Source of the DNA: Haloglomus halophilum
Lineage (GTDB): Archaea > Halobacteriota > Halobacteria > Halobacteriales > Haloarculaceae
Reading direction: 5' to 3'
NCBI RefSeq assembly: GCF_024298885.1
Contig: NZ_CP101166.1
Coordinates: 3,843,149-3,907,148 of the forward strand
Length of the DNA stretch: 64,000 nt
The first letter of the stretch is position 1, and every line of letters begins with the position of its first letter. The position numbers and the translations under genes are program-made. Under the pieces are notes generated by a model. The model searched no databases and had not been told where the DNA came from. It worked only from the letters and a program-made list of their open reading frames with translations. This document shows, in pieces, positions 31,246 through 49,601 of this stretch.

Positions 31246-32430
31246 ATGTCGTTCGAACTCACGGCCGAGCAACGGGCGATCCGCGAGGCCGTCCGCGACT
31301 TCGGGGAGTCCGAGATACGGCCGGTCGCGAAGGAGTACAACGAGCAGGGGCGATACCCCGAGGAACTCCGGCAACAGGCCGCCGACCTCGACCTCGTGGC
31401 ACCGCACATCCCGGAGGCGTACGGCGGCGCGGGGATGGACGGCGTCTCGACGGTCATCGTCACCGAGGAACTGTGGCGCGCGGACCCCGGTGTCGGCGGC
31501 GCCATCGCCGCCGCCGACTTCGGGACCGGGATGATACTGGAGTACGGCGACGAGTGGATGAAGGAGGAGGTCCTGCCGCGGGTCACGGGTGGCGAGACGC
31601 CCATCGCGACCTGCATCTCGGAACCGGCCCATGGCTCGAACGTCGCCGGGATGGAGACGCGCGCCCGGAAGGACACCGCCGAGCAAAGCTCGGCGAGCCC
31701 TGCGACGGCGTCGCAGGAGGGAGACGAGTACGTCATCGACGGCGAGAAGATGTGGATAACGAACGGCACCGTCGCGGACGTCTACATCGTGATGGCCAAG
31801 ACCTCACCCGAGGACGGCCATGCCGGCATCACGGCCTTCCTCACCGAGTCCGACCGGGACGGCATCGAGGCCGCCCGCATCACCAACAAGCTCGGCATCC
31901 ACGCCCAGGACACCGCCGAGATCCGGTTCGACGGGCTCCGAATCCCGGCCGAGAACGTCGTCGGGGAGGTGGACCGGGGGTTCTACCAGCTGATGGAGTT
32001 CTTCGCGCCGGCCCGTGCGGACGTGGCCGGGCAAGCTACGGGCGTCGCGCAGGCCGCACTCGACGCGGCCGTCGCGTACGCGAGCGAGCGCGAGCAGTTC
32101 GACCAGCCCATCGCCGAGTTCCAGGCCATCCGGCACAAGCTCGCGGAGATGGCGACCGACATCGAGGCCGCCCGCTCGCTGGCCTACCGGGCGGGGTCGG
32201 CCATCGACAGCGGCGACACGGACGAGGCGACCCGGCTCGCCTCGATGGCGAAGCTGTTCGCCTCCGAGCACGCCGTCGACGTGACCGACGAGGCCATCCA
32301 GGTCCACGGGGGCGCCGGCTACGTCGACGACCACCCCGTCGAGCGCTACTACCGCGACGCCCGCGTCACGAAGATCTACGACGGCACCTCCGAGATACAG
32401 AAGAACATCATCTCGGAGCAATTGCTGTGA
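31246..32430 (+). CDS. acyl-CoA dehydrogenase with 15-residue palindrome-encoded insert
   Basis: 394 residues from the ATG at 31246 (MSFELTAEQRAIREAVRD); the longer frame from 31168 is not needed, and CATAAG is 28 nt upstream. It oxidises acyl-CoA to enoyl-CoA with FAD. Seen: ATCISEPAHGSNV, EKMWITNG, GIHAQDTAEIRFDGLRIP and VHGGAGYVDDHPVERYYRD. Two oddities: residues 144-158 are absent from the otherwise similar dehydrogenase at 48447-49601 and are encoded by two perfect hairpins. The residue aligned with the usual catalytic Glu is D379 (KIYDGTSEIQ). It may still be active. Confidence 0.9.
   Translation: MSFELTAEQRAIREAVRDFGESEIRPVAKEYNEQGRYPEELRQQAADLDLVAPHIPEAYGGAGMDGVSTVIVTEELWRADPGVGGAIAAADFGTGMILEYGDEWMKEEVLPRVTGGETPIATCISEPAHGSNVAGMETRARKDTAEQSSASPATASQEGDEYVIDGEKMWITNGTVADVYIVMAKTSPEDGHAGITAFLTESDRDGIEAARITNKLGIHAQDTAEIRFDGLRIPAENVVGEVDRGFYQLMEFFAPARADVAGQATGVAQAALDAAVAYASEREQFDQPIAEFQAIRHKLAEMATDIEAARSLAYRAGSAIDSGDTDEATRLASMAKLFASEHAVDVTDEAIQVHGGAGYVDDHPVERYYRDARVTKIYDGTSEIQKNIISEQLL
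31675..31719 (+). repeat. in-frame tandem palindrome insertion
   Basis: Two perfect hairpins lie inside the dehydrogenase CDS: GCCGAGC-AAA-GCTCGGC at 31678-31694 and CCTGCGAC-GGC-GTCGCAGG at 31699-31717, 4 bp apart. Together they make up the 45 bp that encode residues 144-158 (TAEQSSASPATASQE). The homologous enzyme at 48447-49601 runs straight from EKD to GDE without these residues. Confidence 0.8.
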
Positions 32431-48446: not shown

Positions 48447-49601
48447 TTAGAAGCCCTTGCCCTGCAGCTCCCGAGCGATGATGTTCTTCTGGATTTCGGT
48501 GGTGCCCTCGTAGATCTGGGTGATCTTGGCGTCGCGGTAGAACCGCTCGACGTCGAAGTCGTTGACGTAGCCGGCGCCACCGTGAATCTGGACGGCCTCG
48601 TTCGCGACGTCGACGGCCACGCGGGAGGCGTACTCCTTGGCCATCGACGCGAGCTTCGTGACGGGCTCGTCGGAGTTCTCCACGGACCAGGCGGACTTGT
48701 AGGTCAGCTGGCGGGCCGCCTCGAGTTTCGTGTGCATGTCGGCGAGTTTGTGCTGGATGGCCTGGAACTCGCCGATGGGCTGGCCGAACTGCTCGCGCTG
48801 CTGGCTGTACTCCAGCGCGCGCTCGCAGGCACCCTTCGCGATACCGACACCCTGCGCGGCGACGCCGGTTCGGGTGGCGTCGAAGAACTGCATCTGCTGC
48901 AGGAAGCCCATGCCCTCCGTCCCGATGAGGTTCTCCTCGGGGACGCGGACGTCGTCGAAGATGAGCTCCGCCGTGTCCGAGGCGCGGATGCCCATCTTCC
49001 CGGTGATCTTGTCGGCCTCGAAGCCGTCGCGGTCGGCCTCGATGACAATCTGGCTGAAGCCGTTGTAGCGGCCCTCAGCGTCCGGGTCCGTCTTGCACAG
49101 CGTCGTGAAGTAGTCACCGACGGTCCCGTTGGTAATCCACATCTTGTTGCCGTTGATGACCCACTCGTCGCCATCCTTCTCCGCGCGCGTGGAGATGGAG
49201 GAGACGTCGGAGCCGGTGTCGGGCTCGGAGATGGCCGCGCCGGAGATGGCGTCGCCGGCGGCCACGTCGGGGAGGAACCGCTCCTTCTGGTCCTCGGTCC
49301 CGAACTCGATGATGTTCTCGGTCCCGAACGAGCAGGCCATGATGGAGAGGCCGATGCCCGGGTCCGCCGCGAACAGTTCCTCGCCGACGAGGATGTTGTC
49401 GATGGGGTCGTAGCCCGCGCCGCCGTAGTCCATCGGGATGGACATCCCGATGAGGCCCATCTCGGCGGCTTCGTCCACGATATCGTGGGGGAACTTCTCT
49501 TCGACGTCGTACTCGACGGCGTTGGGTCGAATCTCGTTGTCGGCGAACCGCTTGACCTCCTTCTGGAGTTGCTCCTGCTCGTCTGTCAGACCGAAGTCCA
49601 T
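48447..49601 (-). CDS. acyl-CoA dehydrogenase
   Basis: 384 residues from the ATG at 49601 ([19 protein letters not shown]); the frame reaches 49652, but TTTACAA is 28 nt before 49601. FAD/substrate motifs: [44 protein letters not shown] and [20 protein letters not shown]. The catalytic Glu is in [10 protein letters not shown] (E365). It lacks the 15-residue insert of the dehydrogenase at 31246-32430. It catalyses the first oxidation of fatty acyl-CoA beta-oxidation and lies next to the bifunctional second- and third-step enzyme, on the opposite strand. Confidence 0.93.

Follow-up and report, generated by a model that had tools for sequence, protein, structure and literature searches.

The Rickettsia palindromic elements (RPEs) are short palindromic sequences that lie between genes and also in frame within unrelated conserved proteins, and coding palindromes of Wolbachia and Methanocaldococcus jannaschii do likewise (PMC2229807, PMC10969869, PMC2996958). 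RPEs are about 105-150 bp long and carry terminal inverted repeats. The PARCELs are palindromic coding repeats that form tandem arrays and move between proteins; the repeats they encode are amphipathic and tied to membrane proteins, and the authors who described them found no archaeal genome with any (PMC2996958). Among the haloarchaea, the PATEs of Haloquadratum are transposase-free, with hairpins near their ends and terminal-only forms of 52 bp (PMC3119063). The mitochondrial double-hairpin elements of Allomyces and others are mobile and consist of two adjacent hairpins; they are mostly intergenic, but they occasionally occur in genes, where they are retained in transcripts (PMC2800124).

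The element described here is a short insert in an acyl-CoA dehydrogenase (ACAD) gene of Haloglomus halophilum (Table 1). The gene lies in a window of 64,000 nucleotides, the whole stretch of DNA that was analyzed (contig NZ_CP101166.1, positions 3,843,149 to 3,907,148). With a probability of roughly 0.8, the insert is a member of a dispersed, non-autonomous double-hairpin DNA element, seen in this study only in haloarchaea. Its anatomy is hairpin A (an 8-bp stem with a 3-nt loop), the trinucleotide AGC, hairpin B (6-11 bp), and a terminal GAC, and genic copies are 45, 48, or 51 nt long. Like RPEs, the element lies in frame in unrelated conserved genes and is missing from their orthologues (six genes), occurs outside genes too (an intergenic 50-nt subfamily in Haloglomus), and looks selfish, with its in-frame palindromes apparently tolerated in surface turns (PMC2229807, PMC10969869). 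Unlike RPEs, it spans only 45-51 nt in those genes, its ends are not mutual inverted repeats, it consists of two side-by-side hairpins, often in tandem arrays, and its targets resemble its own junction. It is RPE-like in its working but a separate, shorter family, different in length, end structure, and host.

The nearest haloarchaeal neighbors, compared by description, are the PATE and SMR elements of Haloquadratum (PMC3119063). The new element shares with PATEs its haloarchaeal hosts, the lack of a transposase, and hairpins near the ends, with the terminal-only 52-bp forms as a further likeness, but it differs in having no link to the presence of a Y1 transposase and in lying mostly in frame in genes. 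PARCELs are similar in being palindromic, tandemly arrayed, and mobile between proteins, whereas the haloarchaeal unit is hydrophilic, acidic, and 15-17 aa long, with cytosolic enzymes among its hosts. With the mitochondrial elements it shares the double-hairpin architecture. No Rfam match above the gathering score was found on the element in nine loci, and no earlier description of the hairpin family was found in the open literature, subscription journals being outside the scope of that search.

Table 1. The ACAD locus in window coordinates, followed by the five other genes with empty sites, shown by sequence context.
Feature	Position or context	Strand or frame	Basis or remarks
Host gene, ACAD, 394 aa	31246..32430	+	ORF; Pfam Acyl-CoA_dh_N/M/1; ATG at 31246 by orthologue alignment
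Inserted double-hairpin element, 45 nt, codons 144-158 (TAEQSSASPATASQE)	31675..31719	+	absent from G001/G002 orthologues; cmsearch R1 39.9 bits, E 7.7e-7
Hairpin A, 8-bp stem CGCCGAGC/GCTCGGCG, loop AAA	31677..31695	+	same stem positions covary across copies; ssDNA fold
Spacer AGC between hairpins A and B	31696..31698	+	invariant in alignment A2
Hairpin B, 8-bp stem CCTGCGAC/GTCGCAGG, loop GGC	31699..31717	+	sequence; ssDNA fold
Left flank AAGGAC, like element's own 3' end (GAGGAC/CAGGAC)	31669..31674	+	flank statistics
Right flank GGAGACGAG, like element's own 5' end (GCCGACGAG)	31720..31728	+	flank statistics
ValRS	NDD[TDEQSSSSNRTSSDD]IEIATTRPE	in frame	empty site: 1 filled/9 empty
GpmI	ALSD[TVERSSTSNRGKLDD]GDA	in frame	empty site: 1 filled/9 empty
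RsmB-type methylase	KPFN[TDERSSSSPATQSQN]FDAFD	in frame	1 filled + 1 degenerate copy/8 empty
EtfB	IEKIG[AADEQGSSSPAEESE]EPDL	in frame	insert of about 15 codons, 1 filled/8 empty
Photolyase	LMD[TAEQRSASPATGSQD]GDEP	in frame	filled in G003; empty in G002 and G004

A preliminary description had recognized the ACAD insert as two adjacent perfect hairpins with 3-nt loops, placed in frame. This stands, except that one stem, given as 7 bp, was put slightly low, since both are 8 bp; hairpin B reaches 9 bp when its loop is counted as 1 nt, and it is 6 nt shorter than its counterpart in a 51-nt copy of Halorarius (L090). Folded as single-stranded DNA, the insert reaches -19.5 kcal/mol, compared to -9.7 for dinucleotide shuffles (z -4.95; none of 200 as low). 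In the protein, the insert falls in a disordered turn. The AlphaFold model has a mean pLDDT of 90.2, and residues 146-157, the sole stretch below 50, form the turn between strands 139-144 and 158-172. Relatives in the PDB have a plain gap at this point.

The comparison with relatives shows an insertion rather than an ordinary loop. The 384-aa paralogue at 48447-49601 runs uninterrupted across the insert point, as had been reported. Within the genus, the orthologue has 394 aa and an insert identical over all 45 nt in G003, although the surrounding 4.2 kb are only 92% identical. The insert is not common to all close relatives, as the orthologues of the sister species G001 and G002 have 379 aa, exactly 15 codons fewer, and their empty sites read RAERD|GDEY and RARRD|GDEY, respectively, with nothing between. 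Nor is it a normal loop of the subfamily, being present in 3 of 27 aligned relatives: G003 and, at the same codon as related 51-nt inserts, Halorarius litoreus (L090) and the metagenome-assembled genome QS_4_70_19 (L097). A very divergent ACAD (L338, from G315) has two tandem units at the site. When L338 is added to the ACAD tree, from which thinly filled alignment columns, the insert included, were removed beforehand, the strongly supported branches require at least four changes at the insert site; L338 is a long branch, and without it three separate carrier lineages remain. The site has therefore been hit repeatedly, ACADs having gained the element on four or more occasions, always at this codon. 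As part of the best explanation, the insertion seen in the window would have occurred in the ancestor of G000 (the window's own genome) and G003.

A separate observation concerns Halorientalis marina (L037, NZ_CP095487.1, 1909-1989), where the turn of the orthologous ACAD is occupied by another insert, 16 codons long (AEKSEAGSASDRSSAA), that forms a 7-bp hairpin of its own (CGAGGCG/CGCCTCG). Being a different palindromic sequence, it was left out of the count of family members; it is possibly a second family of in-frame palindromes.

Near-exact searches of the own genome recovered only the ACAD copy of the whole insert, and the exact 41-nt sequence is single-copy there, which first suggested a singleton. 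A covariance model, however, finds diverged relatives in the same genome. This model, R1, was built from fifteen ungapped 48-nt copies, in which 93% of cells are paired and the covariation score is 0.284, compared to 0.101 in shuffles. Trained on these other copies, it returns exactly the boundaries of the ACAD insert. With E up to 0.05, it gives 7-12 matches in each Haloglomus genome, the weakest of which may be chance, and it finds 6-47 copies in sixteen selected copy-rich Halobacteria genomes; copy counts overstate independent events because many copies share descent. The hairpin-A pattern matches 120 of 394 Halobacteria genomes, far more than its reversed-pattern control, and among the matches, changes in the stems are compensatory and some copies follow one another in tandem at a spacing of 45 or 48 nt. 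One pattern match, in a dihydroorotase (L116), was set aside as probably due to chance. In a phylum-wide sample of 295 genomes, the covariance model found 21 positive, all in the order of Haloglomus, and no copies outside it.

These relatives also decide against a local birth of the insert, in which template switching or slippage would have made the palindromes at the ACAD site with no dispersed element. Polymerase template switching is known to yield perfect hairpins side by side, which counts for such an origin, as does the single-copy state of the exact sequence. However, homologous inserts occur in unrelated genes and genera, and one covariance model finds them. For example, the ACAD insert of G000 and the photolyase insert of G003 are identical at 40 of 45 positions despite the unrelated genes, and L090 and L097 add copies in other genera. 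As a full account, local birth is refuted and retains hardly any probability, and with it goes the suggestion of a sequence recombination-born at the ACAD site alone, which the homology of inserts in different genes excludes. Template switching or slippage may still explain the persistence of perfect stems. The other interpretation first offered, a haloarchaeal counterpart of RPEs that is mobile-element-like and tolerated in an enzyme, is supported by the related in-frame inserts and empty orthologues in unrelated genes. The first interpretation was thus largely right, and, beyond what could be seen from the window, the ACAD insert belongs to a family that extends across the class.

Empty sites are known for six genes, ACAD and the five others in Table 1 (gene names follow Pfam where scanned and otherwise a reading of the sequences). 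In ACAD, ValRS, GpmI, the RsmB-type methylase, and photolyase, the empty sites lack exactly 15 codons; the empty photolyase site in G002 reads CTGATGGACGGCGAGGAACCG. Further in-frame hosts are a metallo-beta-lactamase/rhodanese protein and a YbhB-type protein. In a TrmB-like regulator (L121, from G181), a large part of an N-terminal extension consists of three 45-nt units in tandem, apparently a protein end built from the element. The degenerate methylase copy is a decayed 15-codon insert (ADERNASGSEARSQN) in L189 (from G028), at the same site as the intact copy of G177; the two may well go back to a single old insertion and have since been diverging.

Histidine kinases account for about half of the coding arrays, with the units directly after the N-box motif NAVEHG. 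One orthologous kinase (orthology judged by flanking sequence) has three units in G000, a single one in both G003 and G001, and about zero in G002. As unit number differs within a genus, arrays turn over fast. The three units of G000 lie at L146:1501-1641 and the one of G003 at L181:1496-1540, apparently in the same kinase and beside its ATP-binding N-box, and the G002 counterpart is L185. Outside genes, a near-identical 50-nt subfamily (GCCGTCAGAGCAAGCTCTGACGAGCCCTCGTTCGCTTCGCTCACGAGGAC) occurs around position 1500 of L161, L166, and L177 (G000) and of L153 and L157 (G003); this length is not divisible by 3, and the conserved sequence continues at least 20 nt rightward.

Could the protein, rather than the DNA, be what spreads? 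A useful Ser/Asp/Glu-rich linker module might have been passed on by gene conversion, with the hairpins a result of codon choice, and the conserved peptide and frame, as well as the kinase arrays just after the N-box, would fit. However, synonymous resampling of 111 open triplet-length units fails to yield the stems. Perfect 8-bp A stems are found in 68 of the 111 units, compared to 3.9 expected (maximum 10), and B stems of at least 6 pairs number 73, compared to 0.6, under a null that ignores shared descent (there are 83 different A hairpins). As the real stems far exceed resampling, the peptide does not explain the hairpins, and pairing is kept at the nucleic-acid level. In addition, intergenic copies with the same architecture have non-triplet lengths, and the hosts have no common function. 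A protein-level linker is strongly disfavored and very unlikely.

The reading frame is biased. By flank codon-usage scoring, based on a codon table from six genes, 66 of 124 arrays are coding, and 65 of these lie on the sense strand, all 65 in one frame (two arrays called 'phase 2' are in the same frame, their match beginning one base later). Unit length is a multiple of 3 in 94 of 98 coding units, compared to 19 of 35 that are clearly non-coding (Fisher 5.6e-8). The native frame is alone among the six in combining zero stops in 107 units with net negative charge. It has almost no Cys, and its peptide is acidic, Ser-rich, and hydrophilic (GRAVY -1.39); the other five frames are Arg-rich, hydrophobic, Cys-rich, or interrupted. 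The frame bias probably reflects a selection filter in an acidic proteome, with the insert translated. Insertions would enter genes in several frames and orientations, and selection would remove all but those in the one stop-free, acidic, Ser-rich, disordered-linker frame; with such a linker in a surface turn, the host protein would keep working.

Alternatively, the insert could be kept out of the protein at the mRNA level, either by excision as an archaeal BHB intron or by bypassing. Ribosome-bypassed hairpin inserts are known from yeast mitochondria, which counts for this possibility, and the predicted fold has strong RNA hairpins. However, that fold pairs the insert internally, not across its edges, and removal would need no triplet length, open frame, or acidic peptide, yet coding copies have all three. 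Removal from the mRNA is therefore highly improbable.

When the flanks of 42 non-kinase copies are joined, they look like the junction between two head-to-tail units of the element, GAGGAC^GCCGTCGAG: 67% of these sites score above the 95th percentile, and 50% above the 99th, of in-frame sites in such genes. The left flanking codon is GAC in 26 of the 42, and the right codons are GCC (20) and GAC (20); GAC on both sides fits target duplication, target preference, or decayed neighboring units alike. True empty ACAD sites are also junction-like, with AAGGAC^GGCGACGAG in L034 ranking 3 of 384 and the L004 site 8 of 384, and three of the four GpmI orthologues have empty sites that rank 24-32 of 511-549. 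The empty sites of ValRS and RsmB bear little resemblance to the junction consensus, and EtfB lacks the likeness as well, so homology is not always needed. This likeness of target to junction suggests homology-guided insertion.

In a REP- or IS200/IS605-like route, comparable to that of REPs or the PATEs of Haloquadratum, a Y1 (HUH) transposase would recognize the single-stranded hairpins and paste them on the 3' side of GAC, a short target. The hairpin architecture, the directionality, and the left GAC in 26 of 42 non-kinase sites are in keeping with it, and the 52-bp terminal-only PATEs, which are similar in size, derive from IS605 (PMC3119063). However, Y1_Tnp (PF01797) is present in 8 of 17 copy-rich and 9 of 17 copy-poor genomes, and the nine copy-rich genomes without it, a difference from REP/RAYT systems as well, include the single-contig G141, G037, and G032. 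Also, the target likeness extends over about 13 nt, beyond a tetranucleotide. Of course, past mobilization is compatible with the absence of the gene today, but on the whole this route is unlikely. No viral carrier was found when viral contigs were scanned with a 21-base pattern, at that strictness, and no mobilizing enzyme, circle, or live transposition was seen.

The best guess for the mover is host recombination acting on junction-like targets. In a tentative model, one head-to-tail unit, freed from an array as a single-stranded hairpin or circle, would insert by short homology at a target resembling its own junction, GAGGAC^GCCGACGAG. Histidine kinase genes would be the largest reservoir of arrays, and their N-box, AAC^GCCGTCGAGCACGG, a natural target of the junction-like kind; haloarchaeal genes, being rich in Asp and Glu codons, would be expected to contain many such sequences. 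The whole would then be a class-wide haloarchaeal selfish element, needing no transposase to spread, as its head-to-tail junction would be homologous to coding targets rich in Asp and Glu, and able to live in essential genes because one of its frames encodes a harmless halophilic linker, a picture that, taken entire, is open to considerable doubt.

In-frame palindromes in conserved genes had previously been described chiefly for Rickettsia and Wolbachia, and once for M. jannaschii. The haloarchaeal family has sister species with exact empty sites, and genetically tractable haloarchaea are available, so it offers a system in which insertion, the filtering of frames, and the consequences for enzymes can be tested directly. 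It bears on how proteins gain disordered linkers of short length, and valS is an example showing that even essential genes can harbor small hairpin DNA.
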